Origin: Thiomonas delicata
GTDB taxonomy: Bacteria > Pseudomonadota > Gammaproteobacteria > Burkholderiales > Burkholderiaceae_C
Reading direction: 5' to 3'
Assembly: GCF_900088825.1 (NCBI RefSeq)
Contig: NZ_LT592170.1
Location: forward strand, 1,744,109 to 1,808,108
DNA length: 64,000 bases
Below the pieces are notes generated by a model. That model had not been told where the DNA came from, did no database searches, and worked only from the letters and a program-made list of their open reading frames with translations. Made by a program: the position numbers and the translations under genes. Shown piece by piece: positions 9,674-16,281 of the stretch; the first letter of the stretch is position 1; every line of letters begins with the position of its first letter.

Positions 9674-10705
9674 ATGAGTACCCGCATTCCCGCCACCCTG
9701 ATCGCCGGCGACGGCATCGGCCCCGAAATCATGGACGCCACCCTGGCCGCGCTGGACGCGCTCGAAGCGCCGTTCGACTGGGATGCGCAGGTGGCCGGGC
9801 TGGGCGGGGTGAAGGCGGCGGGCGACCCGCTGCCCCAGGCCACGCTGGACAGCATCCGCCGCACCCGCCTGGCGCTCAAGGGGCCGCTGGAAACGCCATC
9901 GGGCGGAGGCTACCGCTCGTCGAACGTGCGTCTGCGCGAGGCGTTCAAGCTCTTCGCCAACATGCGCCCGGCGAAGACCATGATTCCGGGCGGGCGTTTC
10001 GACAACATCGACCTGCTGGTGTTTCGCGAGAATGTCGAGGGCCTGTACATGGGCTACGAACATTACATCCCGATCAATGACGACCCGCACGCCGTGGCCA
10101 TCGCCACCGGGGTCAACACCCGGCAGGGCGCGCGCAACATCCTCGACTACACCTTCCGCACGGCCATCGCCCTGGGGCGCAAGAAGGTGACGGTGGTGCA
10201 CAAGGCCAACATCATGAAGGCGCTGACCGGCATCTTCCTGGAAACCGCCTATCAGATGCACAAGGAGAAGTACGCGGGGCGCATCGAACTCGACGATGTC
10301 ATCGTCGACGCCTGCTGCATGAAACTGGTGATCAACCCCTGGCAGTTCGACACCCTGGTGACCACCAACCTCTTCGGCGACATCCTGTCCGACCTGGCGG
10401 CAGGACTGGTCGGCGGCCTGGGTATGGCGCCGGGCGCGAACATCGGCCAGGACGCGGCGATCTTCGAGGCGGTGCACGGCTCCGCGCCCGACATCGCGGG
10501 CAAGGGCGTCGCCAACCCCATTGCGCTGATGCTGGCGGCGGCCCTTATGCTCGATCACAGCGGCTTTCACGACAAGGCGCGGCGCCTGCGCCAGGCCGTC
10601 TCGGAGACGCTCAATGCCGACAACATACGCACCGGCGACCTGGGTGGCAGGGCCGACACGCGCGCATTCACCGCGGCGATCGTCGCGCGCATCCGCAACG
10701 GCTGA
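9674..10705 (+). CDS. NAD-type isocitrate dehydrogenase (isocitrate/isopropylmalate family)
   Basis: A 343-aa decarboxylating dehydrogenase: N-terminal [16 protein letters not shown], substrate loop RSSNVRLREAFKLFANMRP, VFRENVEGLYMG, the Lys-containing VVHKANIMK, and the metal/cofactor region TTNLFGDILSDLAAGL and [11 protein letters not shown]. Length and the ENVEGLY motif fit the NAD-linked homoisocitrate/isocitrate subgroup rather than LeuB, and a true leuB is present at 47359. It converts isocitrate to 2-oxoglutarate and CO2. The ATG at 9674 was chosen because the 45 upstream codons are unrelated to the family. Tartrate dehydrogenase-like activity cannot be excluded. Confidence 0.8.
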   Translation: MSTRIPATLIAGDGIGPEIMDATLAALDALEAPFDWDAQVAGLGGVKAAGDPLPQATLDSIRRTRLALKGPLETPSGGGYRSSNVRLREAFKLFANMRPAKTMIPGGRFDNIDLLVFRENVEGLYMGYEHYIPINDDPHAVAIATGVNTRQGARNILDYTFRTAIALGRKKVTVVHKANIMKALTGIFLETAYQMHKEKYAGRIELDDVIVDACCMKLVINPWQFDTLVTTNLFGDILSDLAAGLVGGLGMAPGANIGQDAAIFEAVHGSAPDIAGKGVANPIALMLAAALMLDHSGFHDKARRLRQAVSETLNADNIRTGDLGGRADTRAFTAAIVARIRNG

Positions 10706-10770
10706 CCCCGCCGCCGGGGCGGCCAGAGGGCCATGTCGCGCCCCGCAGCGGTTTTCCCGTCGCGACCGGC

Positions 10771-11175
10771 CTACCAGCGCAATTCACGCCCCATCTCGCC
10801 GCGGGATGCCCGGATGGTGCGCGTCGTGCCGTCATGGCTCCCGGTGATGGTGTAGGTTCCCGCAGGGACTTTCAAGTAGCACAGCGGGCCTGCGGCGGTG
10901 AACGAGGCCAGGGTCTTGCCGTGTTGCGCGATCTTGACCGGCACGTCGGCCAGGTATTCGCCGCGTGGCCCCTTGACCATCCAGAAACCCAGATCGAACT
11001 TGTCGGCCTGCGCCTGCAGGCGGTGCAAGGCGCCTTCGCCCACGCCCCCGCAGAGGTATTGCACGGGGCCTTGGGTGTGAACGGTTGCTGCGCCGGCCTG
11101 TGGTGCGGCCAGCGGCAGGAGGACTGCCGCGGCCAGGGCCGCGGCATTTTTCAGGACTGGATGCGGAAGATTCAT
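10771..11175 (-). CDS. Small secreted protein, carboxypeptidase-regulatory-like fold
   Basis: A 134-aa exported protein with a signal peptide at about 1-29 (AALAAAVLLPLAAPQAGAA). The mature part holds two Cys (YLCGG and PLCYL) and a pattern of short beta strands with turn motifs (VPAGTYTITGSHDG) typical of small Ig-like or CarboxypepD_reg-like domains. I cannot assign a function. It lies 189 bases downstream of the membrane-protein gene in the leftward redox operon and may be its last gene. The Cys pair could form a disulfide in the periplasm. Confidence 0.55.
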   Translation of the reverse strand: MNLPHPVLKNAAALAAAVLLPLAAPQAGAATVHTQGPVQYLCGGVGEGALHRLQAQADKFDLGFWMVKGPRGEYLADVPVKIAQHGKTLASFTAAGPLCYLKVPAGTYTITGSHDGTTRTIRASRGEMGRELRW

Positions 11176-11364
11176 GATGGCGACTCCATGCGAATGTGGT
11201 CTGACGAAGAGCCGCGCGGCCACGCCATGGTTGGGCGCATACGGTATGGCCGCAGCGGCAACTCGGCCCGTGTTGCCGGGCGCGAACATTGGATCCCACC
11301 CGAGGCGGCCGGTTTCCTTGCCCAGGCGCGGCGACGGGTCCGGCGCCGCGATTTAAGCCAGGTT

Positions 11365-11862
11365 TCATCCTCCAGGAGCGCGCCGCGGCCGCAGCCGCCT
11401 GCCAGCGTGCATCAGCAGGGCCGCGGGCCACAACAGCCCCAGCCACCAATGCAAGTTTGCCAACGGCATGCTCCAGTCCAGCGGTGCGTAGCCGAGGGCG
11501 ATGCCCGACGCTGCCAGCAGCCCGCCGGCGGCGAGGGTGGCGGTTCCTGCGGGACGCGCCCGCCACCGCCGCAGCACTTGTGCCAGATGGGGCCAAACCC
11601 AGCGGCCAGCCAGCAGCGTTGCGCTCCACGCGGCGACGCCGTGGACGACATGGGCCGCGAGCCGCGCCGCCGCCAGCCAGGGCGGGCCGGCGAACAGCAC
11701 GTCTTGCGGAATGCTCCGCACGGCCAGGCCGCTGATCCACAGCAGCAGCACGCAGACCAGGACCAGGGTCATGCCGCCGCGGTTCCAGGCCCACCGGTGG
11801 CGCGATCCCGGTGGGGCGTGGCGGGACGGTGCCGCATGGCGGGTCTTCATGGGCGCGAGCAT
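11365..11862 (-). CDS. Four-helix membrane protein with His pairs (possible cytochrome b-like)
   Basis: A 165-aa protein with hydrophobic segments near 32-50, 64-85, 107-124 and 129-143. Segment 2 carries HVVHG (His71, His74); segment 4 carries NLHWW (His128) and LMHAG (His142). Such paired His residues in facing helices are typical of b-haem-binding membrane proteins, so a small ferric-reductase or cytochrome b561-like electron carrier is plausible. No family was recognised with certainty. The ATG lies two bases after the apbE stop, which strongly suggests coupled translation and a shared task with the flavinylation genes. Confidence 0.5.
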   Translation of the reverse strand: MLAPMKTRHAAPSRHAPPGSRHRWAWNRGGMTLVLVCVLLLWISGLAVRSIPQDVLFAGPPWLAAARLAAHVVHGVAAWSATLLAGRWVWPHLAQVLRRWRARPAGTATLAAGGLLAASGIALGYAPLDWSMPLANLHWWLGLLWPAALLMHAGRRLRPRRAPGG

Positions 11863-11864
11863 GA

Positions 11865-12752
11865 TCAGCGCGCCTCGACGTCCATGCGCCAGCCGCGCGC
11901 GCCGGCCTGCTGCAGCAGCCCGGGAGGCAGCCGACGCGACACGAGCAAGGCCTTGGTCAGCGCGTCGGCATCGATGCAGCGCCGGGCCAGGACGCAAACC
12001 AGCCGGGGCGACTGCGCCTGGCCTGCACGCCCGGGCCGGCCATGGGACCAGGACAGGTCCTGGTTTGGGCGCGACGTCGCCAGGGCCGCGTCATGCAGGC
12101 CGCGCCGCAGCCAGCCAGGTAGGGCGCTGGGGCGGCAGGATGCGAGCGCCGAAGCGGGCAGACGCAGGGTCAGCGGCCAGCTGCATGGGCCGAAGGCGCG
12201 CATGTCGCCGCCGGCGTTGACCAGGCCGCTGGCGATGCCCGCTTCCTGCAAGGCCAGCACGGCGCAGTCCACGGCATGGCCCTTGGCGATGCCGCCGAAG
12301 TCCAGCGCCAGCGGCTGGTGGACGCGCAGATGGGTGTCGTCCTCGATGCAAACCGCGTCAAGATCGTGCGCCCAGGCCGCTTCGCCCCGCGCCAGGCCGG
12401 GACGCAGGCCGCGTGCCGCCAGCGCGGCGCCGACGCGCGGATCGAAGCGCCCGCCGCTTGCGCGATGCCAGTGCCTCGCGCGGCGCAGCACGGCGGTGGT
12501 GTGGCAGTCGACTCGCAGCAGCGAACCCGGCGTGGCGCGGGCGATGCGCGCCAGGTCGCTGTGGGGGCTGTGCGCGCTCATCGCGGCCTGGATGCGGTCG
12601 AGCACGGCGCAGGCGCTTCGCATGGCGCGGCTTGCCTGGATTTGGTCGTCGGCATGCAACTGCAGCTCGACCAGGGTGCCGAGCGCGAGGTGGGCGCGGC
12701 GGAACAATCCGGGCGGGCCGCCGGGAGCCGGCGCGGGGCGCATCGGCCTCAT
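11865..12752 (-). CDS. apbE: FAD:protein FMN transferase
   Basis: A 295-aa ApbE-family enzyme that covalently attaches FMN to a Thr/Ser of target proteins, usually outside the cytoplasm. The signature LDFGGIAKGHAVD and the downstream VNAGGD are present, as is the C-terminal DADALTKALLV helix. The true start is the ATG at 12752, which overlaps the stop of the FMN-binding protein gene (ATGA); the long upstream extension of the frame is antisense-like Arg-rich sequence. No classical signal peptide is evident. Its likely target is the adjacent FMN-binding protein. Confidence 0.85.
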   Translation of the reverse strand: MRPMRPAPAPGGPPGLFRRAHLALGTLVELQLHADDQIQASRAMRSACAVLDRIQAAMSAHSPHSDLARIARATPGSLLRVDCHTTAVLRRARHWHRASGGRFDPRVGAALAARGLRPGLARGEAAWAHDLDAVCIEDDTHLRVHQPLALDFGGIAKGHAVDCAVLALQEAGIASGLVNAGGDMRAFGPCSWPLTLRLPASALASCRPSALPGWLRRGLHDAALATSRPNQDLSWSHGRPGRAGQAQSPRLVCVLARRCIDADALTKALLVSRRLPPGLLQQAGARGWRMDVEAR

Positions 12753-13312
12753 CCCTGTGGCAGCAGCGCCACGAGTGCCGACAGCCGCTGCACCGCGTCG
12801 CTGACGTGTTGGCACGACAGCGTGGCCCCGGCGATGTTGCGGATGTCGTCGCCGAAACGCAGCTGCCCGGGATGTTTGCGGCCGACGAACTGCCGCCGCC
12901 ACGCGGGCAGGCGAATCTCGGCGCCGTGCGATTCGCGATAGGCCAAGATCTCGACGCCGACGATGGCGTGGTCGGGCGCGAACCCGACGGCGAAATCGAT
13001 CAGCTCGGTCTTGCCGACGGCGTGGTCCAGCGCGACATGGCCCAGCAACTGGCCTCGCGTATCGACGGCGGCCCACCAGCGCGGCGTATCGCCGGGTGGA
13101 AAGCCGCTGCCGGCTTCGCGTTCGACCTGTGCGCGTCTGGCCGGGGTCAGCGGATCGGGCATCGCGGCGAAGCGCGCGGCGGCAGGAAACAGCGCGCGCA
13201 TGGCCTCCTGCGGGCTCTGGTATTGGACGGCCCAGGCCAGCAGCGGCAGGCCACTGCCGGCAGCCAGGAGCACGCAGCGGGCCGAGTGGCGGAGAAGGTC
13301 GCGTTTATGCAT
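12749..13312 (-). CDS. Exported FMN-binding domain protein
   Basis: A 187-aa protein with a signal sequence at 1-28 (RCVLLAAGSGLPLLAWA). Its C-terminal third has the FMN-binding domain motif IAGATLSCQHVSDAVQRL, in which the Thr of GATLS is the usual site of covalent FMN attachment by ApbE. Similar domains occur in NqrC/RnfG subunits and in periplasmic flavoproteins. It would act as a periplasmic one- or two-electron carrier. It is 20 bases downstream of the porin gene and overlaps apbE by four bases. Confidence 0.8.
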   Translation of the reverse strand: MHKRDLLRHSARCVLLAAGSGLPLLAWAVQYQSPQEAMRALFPAAARFAAMPDPLTPARRAQVEREAGSGFPPGDTPRWWAAVDTRGQLLGHVALDHAVGKTELIDFAVGFAPDHAIVGVEILAYRESHGAEIRLPAWRRQFVGRKHPGQLRFGDDIRNIAGATLSCQHVSDAVQRLSALVALLPQG

Positions 13313-13332
13313 GGCACGGACTCCGGACGCAA

Positions 13333-14670
13333 TCAGAACTGGAAGCCGACGCCGAGGTTGAGCGCATTGCGCTCGCGCTGGCCGCGAAACACTTGATAGT
13401 CGGCCTTGAACACGACCTGAGGCGTGAGGAACAGGCTGGCTCCGCTGGTGAGCACCCGTGTCGTCGGCGCATCGGGCGGGGTCAGCCCCTGCGGGATGCC
13501 CGAATAGCCGCGGGCGGTATTGAGGATCTCATAGCGGGCGAAGGGCGAGAGCCGGTAGCCGCCGGTGTTCCAGCCGCGGTAGGCCGCCTGCAGGTAGGCG
13601 CCGCCGAAGCCGTCGGGAATCGGCGTCGGCTGGCCGGCGAACAGCGTCGCGTTGATCGCCGCCACGCCGGTGAAGCGGCCGTAGGCGGCCAGGGCCTGGA
13701 ACTGCCAGGGGCCGGGTTCCCAGCGCGCGTGCAACTCGCCGAGCTGATAACGCGCGCCGGCGAAGCCGGCCTGGCCCTGGCCGACGTCGCCGGTGTACAG
13801 GCTGCCGCCGACGTTCAGGCCGAGAACGCCGTCGTAGTTCAAAGCGCCGTAGACCGTGAGCCCTTTGGCCTTGGCCTGGGATCCCTCCTGATGCGTGCAT
13901 TGCAGCGGCGCCAGCGCGCATTCGCTGCCGGCGGCTGGGTCCCATTTGCCCAGGTCGGGGCTGGTCACGAGTCCGGCATTCCAGCGCCATCCCGACTCGG
14001 TGGTGCCCTCCAGGCCCGCGCCGAGTTCGCGCCAGGTGGACGGAATGACCCGGGTTTCAACTTCATTGCGGAACACGCCGTAGTAGGCGGCAGGCTCGTG
14101 CGACTGGTTGAGGTAGCCGGCGGGCATCAGGAACAGGCCGGTCTTGAGCGTGAGGCCGGGGTTGATGTCGTGAGCGACATAAAACTGTTCGAGTTCGATC
14201 TCGCCGGCGTCGCTGGACGACGCCACGCCGCTCTCGAGTTCCAGTTCGGCGGCCATGCGCGTGTCCGGGCTGAAGGCGTAGCCCCAGCCCAGTACGCCGC
14301 GCGTGAGGTTGGCCGTCGCGCCGGACGGGTCGCGGGTCGGGCGCGTGTAGCCCAGTTCGCCGTAGCCGAACAGGGTCAGTGGCGAGCGTTGCTGGCTCCC
14401 TCCAGGCATCGGCGCTGCATCGTTGGACGCGCCGCCTGCCGGAGCCTGGACGACGGCAGCCGCCTTGGCCGGCGGGGCAGCCGTGGCCTCGGCGACGGCC
14501 TGCTTGCGCAGTTCGCGCACCTCGTCGCGCAAGGCTTGCAACTCGGCGCGCAGCGTCTGAACTTCCAGACTCAGCGCGGCGCCGTCCTGGTTGGTTGCGT
14601 CGGCCCAGGCGAATGTGCCGTAGGCGGCGAGCGCCACGGCCAGCGCGCCGCGCCGGATCCTGCAGGTCAT
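13333..14670 (-). CDS. Outer-membrane porin with N-terminal coiled coil
   Basis: A 445-aa protein: signal peptide (MTCRIRRGALAVALAAYGTF, cleavage near AWA|DA), a heptad coiled coil (LEVQTLRAELQALRDEVREL, about 34-54), an Ala/Pro linker, then many alternating aromatic beta strands ending in the Phe-terminated LNLGVGFQF, as expected for a 16-18-stranded barrel of the phosphate-selective porin O/P or DcaP type. An in-frame ATG at 14712 would add 14 residues; neither start has a strong ribosome binding site. Its place in a Fur-box operon suggests iron-related uptake or an outer-membrane route, which is inference. Confidence 0.7.
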   Translation of the reverse strand: MTCRIRRGALAVALAAYGTFAWADATNQDGAALSLEVQTLRAELQALRDEVRELRKQAVAEATAAPPAKAAAVVQAPAGGASNDAAPMPGGSQQRSPLTLFGYGELGYTRPTRDPSGATANLTRGVLGWGYAFSPDTRMAAELELESGVASSSDAGEIELEQFYVAHDINPGLTLKTGLFLMPAGYLNQSHEPAAYYGVFRNEVETRVIPSTWRELGAGLEGTTESGWRWNAGLVTSPDLGKWDPAAGSECALAPLQCTHQEGSQAKAKGLTVYGALNYDGVLGLNVGGSLYTGDVGQGQAGFAGARYQLGELHARWEPGPWQFQALAAYGRFTGVAAINATLFAGQPTPIPDGFGGAYLQAAYRGWNTGGYRLSPFARYEILNTARGYSGIPQGLTPPDAPTTRVLTSGASLFLTPQVVFKADYQVFRGQRERNALNLGVGFQF

Positions 14671-14794
14671 CGAGGATGGGCGCAGATCGGTGTGGGTGTG
14701 TTGTGCGTACATGGTTGCGGTGGTTGCATGGGTGGGGAAACAGGCGAGGGCGGATGGTCGCGCAAAAGACCCTCCGAAGGGCGCGGTCGCGCCA

Positions 14795-16111
14795 CTAGCG
14801 TGCGGCGTCTTGCCAGCCGTCGCTCAGGGTGGAGAGAAACGCGACCAGGTCATCGATCTCGGCTTCGGTCAGGGCCGGGGCCTGTCCCGGGCGTCGGTCG
14901 TAGGGAGCTTCGGCGGTGTTGACGTACTGCCGGTATGCGGCGGGCAGATCGTTGTAGGCCACCACCTGGCCCTGGGCATCCGGCGGGTACCACGCCTGCG
15001 GCTGGGTGTCCCGGCTCACATAGAAGCGCACGGCCTGCGCGAGGTCGGTGAACGCGCAGTTGTGGAACAGGCAGCGTTTGCGTGCCACGTTGCGCAGGCT
15101 CGGCACCTTGAACGACCCGCACAGATCGGGCCGTTGCGCGCCCTGCAGTGCGGAGCTTTGACAAAGCCCCAGGTCGGTGTGCGCGGGGTCGGCATTGGCA
15201 GGGATCGCGGCGTTGCGCGGCAGGCCTAGGTTGTCGTAGCTGAAGTCGGTGAACAGGGGCGGGTGGCCATCCGTCGCAAGGCTGCTGTGGCAGGCGGCGC
15301 AATTGCCTTTGTTCGGCGCATTGAACAAGGCGAGGCCGCGCAACTCCTGCGCCGTGAGTTCCGCGCGCCCGTTCTGGAAGGCGTCGAATTTGCTGGAGAA
15401 CGGGGCGAAATCGGGATCTTCCTGCTGGTATTGCGCGATCGCGTAAGCCAGGCGCGCGTATGCAACCTCGGGGTCGTCGAACACGTCGGCGCCGAACACC
15501 ACGCGGAACTGTTCCGCGTAGCCGGCCCGGGCCAGCTTGGCCACCACGTCTGGCTTGCTCGCATTCGCCATTTCGGCTGGATTGAGCAAAGGCTGGCCGG
15601 CCTGGTCCGCCAGGCTTTGCGCGCGACCGTCCCAGAAAAAGCCGCCGGTCGGCGTGCCGTCCTTGGCGAAATGGAAGGCCTTGTTGAACCTCAGATAGTT
15701 GATCGACGGCACGGCCCTCGTGCCGGGTTGGTTGAGGTCGGCGCCGCCCAGGGCCACCGGACCCGCCGTGATCGTGTTGAAGGGGGATGGACCGTGCCCG
15801 AACGCTGGGTCGTGGCAGCTTTGACACGACATGCGGCCCGAGGCCGACAACGAGGGATCCTTGAACGCGAGTTCCCCGATCCGGGCGGCGGCGCTCAACT
15901 GGGGCGGGGACGAACTGCCGTCGCCTGTGGCGGGCCGTTCGCCGGAGTCCGCGCCGCCACAAGCGGCAAGCAACCCAGCAAGCACCAGGCTCGCGCCGAA
16001 CTCGGCCACGCGTTTGCTCCCGCATGCGCCGAACGTGCGCGGGACGATGGGAGCGACTGGTTCGGTCGTGGAGCGGATCGCGCCTGGGTGGGTTCGCATG
16101 GGCTGGGTCAT
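14795..16111 (-). CDS. Di-haem cytochrome c peroxidase/MauG-family lipoprotein
   Basis: A 438-aa protein with two haem c sites, CQSCH and CAACH, and the family segment FKVPSLRNVARK. A lipobox-like LLAAC at about residues 48-52 suggests a lipid-anchored periplasmic protein, although the n-region would be unusually long, so the real start may lie further downstream. Family members reduce hydrogen peroxide or, as MauG, carry out high-valent haem chemistry. It is the first gene of the leftward operon containing porin, FMN-binding protein and ApbE, and lies 28 bases from a Fur-box palindrome. Confidence 0.8.
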   Translation of the reverse strand: MTQPMRTHPGAIRSTTEPVAPIVPRTFGACGSKRVAEFGASLVLAGLLAACGGADSGERPATGDGSSSPPQLSAAARIGELAFKDPSLSASGRMSCQSCHDPAFGHGPSPFNTITAGPVALGGADLNQPGTRAVPSINYLRFNKAFHFAKDGTPTGGFFWDGRAQSLADQAGQPLLNPAEMANASKPDVVAKLARAGYAEQFRVVFGADVFDDPEVAYARLAYAIAQYQQEDPDFAPFSSKFDAFQNGRAELTAQELRGLALFNAPNKGNCAACHSSLATDGHPPLFTDFSYDNLGLPRNAAIPANADPAHTDLGLCQSSALQGAQRPDLCGSFKVPSLRNVARKRCLFHNCAFTDLAQAVRFYVSRDTQPQAWYPPDAQGQVVAYNDLPAAYRQYVNTAEAPYDRRPGQAPALTEAEIDDLVAFLSTLSDGWQDAAR

Positions 16112-16139
16112 GGCAAAGGGGCAAAGGGCTACAAAAAGA

Positions 16140-16158
16140 AATAGGAATCATTCTTATT
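16140..16158. promoter_or_regulatory. Putative Fur box
   Basis: AATAGGAATCATTCTTATT is a 9-1-9 palindrome with a single mismatched pair. It is AT-rich in an otherwise GC-rich region and resembles the GAATnATTC core of proteobacterial Fur sites. It lies 28 bases upstream of the di-haem peroxidase start, where it could block RNA polymerase when iron is plentiful. The divergent purU gene begins 159 bases away on the other side. Confidence 0.65.
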
Positions 16159-16281
16159 CAATGATGTGGGGTGTGTCAAGCCTCGCGAAGGGGCTATGGC
16201 GGGGCCAGTTCGGCGCCCGGCCGCAGGAACTGCTCGGCCCGGCAATTTGCAGCACGGCCTGCCTAGAATCGGTCGCTTGGG

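Follow-up and report, generated by a model that had tools for sequence, protein, structure and literature searches.

FeoB is widespread, but for most aerobes we know of no enzyme that would produce Fe(II) on the outer side of the inner membrane. The described systems closest to the locus studied here, a five-gene operon in a 64-kb stretch of the Thiomonas delicata genome (hereafter the window), are those of flavinylation-associated extracytosolic electron transfer, in which ApbE is found with a secreted protein that binds flavin mononucleotide (FMN) and with a membrane electron carrier; in the parts of that work dealing with iron, iron reduction is proposed for the MsrQ-like, PepSY-like and P19 clusters, and the PepSY-like ones are reported as Fur-repressed (Meheust et al., 2021; PMC8238504). 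Neither FeoB nor a peroxidase is mentioned in its main text. In addition, apbE has been linked to DUF4405 cytochromes, according to the passages of PMC10979944 on these proteins. The T. delicata operon has the same three parts as the flavinylation systems, but adds a porin and a di-haem lipoprotein. Judged by sequence, it is outside the five published flavinylation membrane classes and is not a clear DUF4405 member; new relative to the published systems are the four-helix membrane protein, the porin and di-haem partners, and the linkage to feoAB. We consider it likely that this is an iron-starvation operon encoding an assimilatory periplasmic ferric reductase that feeds Feo. A single operon would then bring together a candidate reductase, a pore for entry through the outer membrane and a peroxidase, all under seemingly Feo-type control, and its four-helix His-rich cytochrome would join the list of partners of flavinylated proteins. 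Among the titles listed we found none describing the operon, and no report of FeoB jointly with an FMN-binding protein and ApbE, subscription papers and supplements lying outside the search; the supplements of PMC8238504 may hold such clusters unnamed.

The operon is made up of five leftward genes, encoding a di-haem MauG-like lipoprotein, a porin, an FMN-binding protein, ApbE and a four-helix membrane protein, with a putative promoter and operator in front of the first:

14795..16111, minus strand: di-haem MauG/BthA-like enzyme, predicted lipoprotein (P0001), with two CxxCH motifs, Tyr ligand, peroxidase Glu and disulfide Cys kept
13333..14712, minus strand: outer-membrane porin, 16 modelled strands, N-terminal helix 43-76, OprP/OprO-like fold
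12749..13312, minus strand: single-domain FMN-binding protein (P0003), exported as judged by eye, predicted flavinylation site NIAGATLS, Thr164
11865..12752, minus strand: ApbE, flavin adenine dinucleotide:protein FMN transferase (P0004), assigned by Pfam
11365..11862, minus strand: four-helix membrane protein (P0005), predicted di-haem b cytochrome, H74/H92 in helix 61-98 and H138/H152 in helix 128-157
16150..16179, minus strand: sigma-70-type promoter TTGACA-18-AAGAAT, its -10 inside the Fur-like box
16140..16158, no strand: predicted Fur-like operator AATAGGAATCATTCTTATT, arms complementary at 8 of 9 positions, 28 bases from the first start codon

A preliminary description of this region had listed six open reading frames, all leftward, between 10771 and 16111, the last being a small secreted protein (10771-11175), and its frames and coordinates were correct on re-check. 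From the first gene to the sixth the intergenic distances are 82, 20, -4, 2 and 189 bases; the ATGA overlap between the FMN-binding gene and apbE is real (-4), as are the 2 bases separating apbE from the membrane gene. The di-haem gene has the porin on one side and a divergent formyltransferase-domain gene on the other. The frames are the output of our own caller, in which overlapping frames conceal some genes, and the Pfam scan covered the six window proteins only. Extracellular respiration was considered; no multihaem family scored over its cut-off in these six proteins, and the Fur-like box suits assimilation better.

Conservation was examined in 300 genomes drawn evenly from the order, 57 of which have a relative of P0003 (host included), and in 200 genomes of the family, 31 of which have one (host included). 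Neighbourhoods were taken from 44 of the 56 other order genomes (12 genomes with weak matches were left out), giving 51 loci with an FMN-type match, and from all 30 other family genomes. Of the 51 order loci, 38 combine the genes for the FMN-binding protein, ApbE and the membrane protein (the core), and 5 have the full set of five; in the family sample the full set is present in 20 of the 30 loci. All five are also together in 50 of 80 named loci, which are the best 80 of at least 506 and not an even sample; the genera among these include Curvibacter, Ramlibacter, Massilia, Undibacterium, Noviherbaspirillum, Collimonas, Rugamonas, Duganella, Derxia, Limnohabitans and Ideonella. Carriers of the operon include harmless bacteria of water and soil. 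The five genes are a conserved unit. Co-occurrence had been expected of six families, and it holds for five of them and not for the sixth gene; scattered homologs without co-occurrence were looked for and did not occur. Within the host genus (28 genomes) the porin was found in the host, the single other match being marginal and carrying an internal stop, and the operon is therefore patchy, which fits horizontal transfer or repeated loss. A second arrangement has a DUF6662 protein before the core, often together with a porin and a ferritin-family gene (all in L131, L143, L153, L160, L161, L169, L171, L174 and L175, from Thiobacillus, Sulfuriferula, Sideroxydans and kin). This sister arrangement lacks the di-haem enzyme, and its first gene has no good Fur-like box.

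The linkage of the operon to feoAB is new and was absent from the preliminary description. Of the 30 family-sample genomes, 26 have a FeoB_C match (one per genome); in 7 of these it is no more than 5 kb from the FMN gene, where about 0.05 would be expected by chance (binomial P ~1e-13, kinship ignored). In the order sample strong FeoB matches were found in 37 of 45 genomes, host included, 2 of them within 5 kb and 5 within 15 kb, the latter limit having been picked after the positions were known. Among the best 80 of at least 506 loci, feoB is in the fetched flank of 15, upstream, downstream or divergent. Five loci have feoA-feoB directly after the core on the same strand (L197, L203, L204, L206 and L218), FeoA scoring over its cut-off in all five, and the feoB of L195 runs divergently from the di-haem gene. 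That feoB takes differing arrangements across lineages points to function rather than to one inherited layout. At L218 (~10029-10751, genome G514) a single frame encodes the membrane domain, His residues included, and after it FeoA; this would be a natural fusion, of the Rosetta-stone kind, between the predicted cytochrome and a Feo component. It is the sole such frame among 144 membrane-protein matches and 17 FeoA matches, a single sequence that needs confirming. The iron role that had been proposed for the operon is supported by the feoAB linkage and by this one fusion.

Control by Fur was the other part of that proposal. A 9-1-9 palindrome had been placed 28 bases upstream of the first gene; it is present at 16140-16158, but its arms pair at 8 of 9 positions rather than all. 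It is the sole site in the window with at least 13/18 matches to either Fur consensus. The promoter pattern that it overlaps occurs once in the region, compared with a mean of 0.3 (standard deviation 0.5) in shuffles, and an operator over the -10 is the textbook position for Fur. In the 3.84-Mb genome the degenerate pattern AATNRGAATNATTCYNATT has one exact match, the operon site; at two mismatches it occurs in three further places, the reversed control pattern in none, and one of these sites sits 88 bases before the host feoA, which overlaps feoB. Other operons were scored over 300 bases upstream of and 120 inside each first gene, with two Fur consensuses and a threshold of 14/18. A box at this threshold stands before 44 of 57 operons headed by the di-haem gene (the duplicates L037, L039 and L040 left out), compared with 0 of 214 internal genes of the operons and 0 of 57 with the reversed consensus. 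Flanking genes reached it in 26 of 377 cases, 21 of which are the operon's own site viewed from the neighbour. In the family sample, which partly overlaps the first set, the figures were 15/22 versus 1/85. Six of 62 operons score just 8-11 (L098, L100, L102, L107, L118 and L151). Operons without the di-haem gene mostly have no good box in the scanned stretch: one of 14 headed by DUF6662 reached 14, and L197, L203 and L218 scored 13, 10 and 10. In DUF6662-type operons with feoB upstream, the promoter may be further up, beyond that stretch. A Fur-like operator lying over the promoter and recurring in kin is what a Fur-regulated operon would have, and this footprint bears out the earlier suggestion of Fur-type control: the operon is probably Fur-controlled and iron-repressed, and on comparative grounds we regard the iron role and Fur control as well supported.

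The two remaining two-mismatch sites in the host genome lie before genes of other kinds. One precedes a PepSY_2 gene by 32 bases, with a cytochrome b561 gene next in line (L093 4529-5564), perhaps another iron-linked membrane redox pair. The other precedes, by 19 bases, the gene of a perhaps exported protein of 266 residues that has no Pfam family (L094 4498-5336).

Within the core, P0003 matches FMN_bind with 31.9 bits and P0004 matches ApbE with 118.5 bits, both over cut-off, and their genes adjoin with a four-base overlap, as in flavinylation-associated clusters; RnfG models match P0003 far below cut-off. The flavinylation motif [S/T]GA[S/T] reads AGAT in the window. Its G, A and T are invariant in 22 rows, where the first position varies, and in 53 rows the T is kept in 100% and the G and A in 98%. 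In the membrane protein, H74, H92, H138 and H152 are invariant in 41 of 41 aligned members, and the model (predicted local distance difference test score 86) has a bundle of four helices, two of which each carry a pair of these His, an arrangement characteristic of di-haem b-type cytochromes. The invariant His and the modelled fold support the previously suggested b-haem-like membrane protein: P0005 resembles di-haem b cytochromes, and haem binding is predicted. By Pfam it has a b561 match below cut-off (19.4 vs 30.1), and at E<=1 the six window proteins show no NapH-, MsrQ-, PepSY-, DsbD- or NQR/RNF-like domain. The DUF4405 cytochromes, as described in the same passages of PMC10979944, are also linked to apbE; they are membrane proteins with haem b in which four His are central, and some relatives of P0005 match their family, PF14358. 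They differ in having six transmembrane helices, compared with four helices in ~160 residues here. P0005 itself has no PF14358 match. Its 41 aligned members matched PF14358 in 14 cases, Ni_hydr_CYTB in 18 and Acyl_transf_3, surely spuriously, in 12 (E<=0.01), and PF14358 was over cut-off in one of 10 relatives scanned singly.

From these parts we infer every redox step, the electron direction, the substrate and Fur binding. Fur with iron would cover the promoter, and low iron would switch the operon on. The four-helix di-b-haem protein would take electrons from quinol in the inner membrane and pass them to the periplasmic protein carrying FMN, attached by ApbE at the GAT threonine. The flavin would reduce Fe(III) to Fe(II), a step that is the simplest reading of the operon; the Fe(III) would probably arrive as small anionic ferric chelates through the OprP-like porin, and the Fe(II) would be imported by FeoB. 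The di-haem lipoprotein would most likely use the same chain to destroy hydrogen peroxide beside the new Fe(II), or, alternatively, act as a terminal haem reductase. A broader version, which we put forward tentatively and hold to be somewhat less than even in probability, is that this is a widespread periplasmic ferric reductase of Burkholderiales, combining TonB-independent entry of anionic ferric chelates by a dedicated porin, reduction by covalent FMN and di-b-haem, and a di-haem peroxidase of its own to suppress Fenton chemistry where the Fe(II) is formed. If true, it would answer where Feo obtains Fe(II) in oxic water.

The porin has no Pfam family over cut-off, and for it and the FMN protein the sequence search for solved relatives gave just unrelated chains at E 0.4-1. 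The closest known porins are OprP/OprO and the DcaP outer-membrane porins. An SGAT in the porin (DPSGATANL, by eye) was considered as a flavinylation site and rejected, since the Ideonella porin is without it (by eye; one porin compared). Entry need not be by the porin: the operon could serve reductive iron release from imported ferric siderophores or haem taken up by TonB receptors, matches to which lie in the flanks of L004, L110, L111, L114, L117, L121, L209 and L213, from few receptor seeds, so that more may exist. Yet the porin is in every full operon counted and receptor matches are in few, and feoAB is the commoner neighbour (the 15 of the best 80 loci given above), which makes this route quite improbable.

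The di-haem enzyme P0001 scores 116 bits with CCP_MauG, and also matches Cytochrom_C over cut-off. With its two haem motifs, CQSCH and CAACH, it falls in the superfamily of bacterial cytochrome c peroxidases and MauG, and a lipobox, LAAC, was seen by eye at residues 48-51. The Glu that we take to serve the peroxidase reaction is kept in 61 of 61 operon copies. Both CxxCH are kept, and of 62 copies all keep the Tyr ligand, 61 the Cys pair and 60 the lipobox Cys; in the column of the window's inter-haem Trp160, 28 copies have Trp and another 28 have Arg, while His occurs in 4 and Leu in 1. These 62 leave out L058, which is shortened, and three outgroup rows, and include the duplicates L037/L108 and L039/L168, the near-identical L040 and the contig-cut L157; the Glu count additionally leaves out L157. 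The inter-haem Arg, mostly in Oxalobacteraceae, is a natural swap relative to Trp. The di-haem gene of L058 (5906-6454) encodes just 182 residues, the middle being absent, in a cluster otherwise similar.

The nearest solved relative of P0001 is BthA (6nx0; 280 bits), whose residues were mapped by hand from the printed alignment and the numbering in PMC6405878. P0001 keeps the Tyr and Lys near BthA's six-coordinate haem and both disulfide Cys. It differs from BthA, as far as the structural account in PMC6405878 goes, in having Trp160 in place of the inter-haem Ser, and a lipobox and this operon in place of a phosphatase neighbour; moreover, the Lys is Arg in 57 of the 62 operon copies. The tree separates the operon copies, as one group (100/98), from three BthA-like rows, two of which have long branches flagged by the tool and one of which is the host's own second copy. 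This second MauG-like gene (L076 6065-9291, host C4 ~351064-354290) has a four-base overlap with a 590-residue Phosphoesterase-family gene and masked bases near its start; the pair is much like BthA in Burkholderia, which is reported to sit next to a phosphatase. A true MauG, MbnH or BthA function was considered; the MauG and MbnH models match P0001 far below cut-off (TTQ_mauG 89.8 bits vs 443.85), and the operon copies group apart from the BthA-like rows.

From its sequence we take the di-haem protein for an envelope-anchored peroxidase on the outer side; our first choice for its role is protection from Fenton chemistry, and our second is that of a terminal haem reductase. The conserved Glu, haem motifs and Tyr ligand would suit an operon devoted to peroxide defence in iron-starved cells, in which electrons run from quinol through b-haem and FMN to the di-haem peroxidase, which would remove hydrogen peroxide when catalase falls for want of iron, the Feo linkage reflecting shared Fur control; the di-haem enzyme is the first gene after the box, and BthA is described in PMC6405878's account of its activity as a good peroxidase. 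However, the core is followed by feoAB where no di-haem gene was found (L197, L203 and L218) and occurs also in DUF6662-type clusters, one membrane protein is fused to FeoA, and the porin would have no obvious use, so that we regard such a role for the whole operon as unlikely. Because the core with feoAB occurs in such loci, the di-haem enzyme looks like an accessory; the preliminary description had electrons ending on it, a placement that may or may not hold.

MauG makes tryptophan tryptophylquinone and MbnH makes kynurenine. The di-haem enzyme might similarly oxidise residues of the porin or of an iron ligand with support from the flavin chain, as the MauG-type Tyr ligand and disulfide Cys, the sub-threshold matches to both models and the inter-haem Trp of 28 rows could suggest. 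Against this, that position, said in the discussion of MauG in PMC6405878 to be required there, is Arg, His or Leu in most of the other rows, the TTQ_mauG score is far too low, and Pfam found no Mau substrate among the six window proteins; we consider this modification role very unlikely.

The small sixth gene (10771-11175) had been counted as part of the operon, and this did not hold. It lies 189 bases downstream, no relative was found in the 53 loci compared, and it was rejected as a component for this missing linkage and for a 59% paralog elsewhere in the host genome (C4:1407014-1407382). Seven of the sampled genomes have matches to it as well as to P0003, and in these the two matches fall on separate contigs or are 185 kb from each other, several of the assemblies being fragmented. 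Distant relatives of the small secreted protein are present in 32 of 119 other family genomes.

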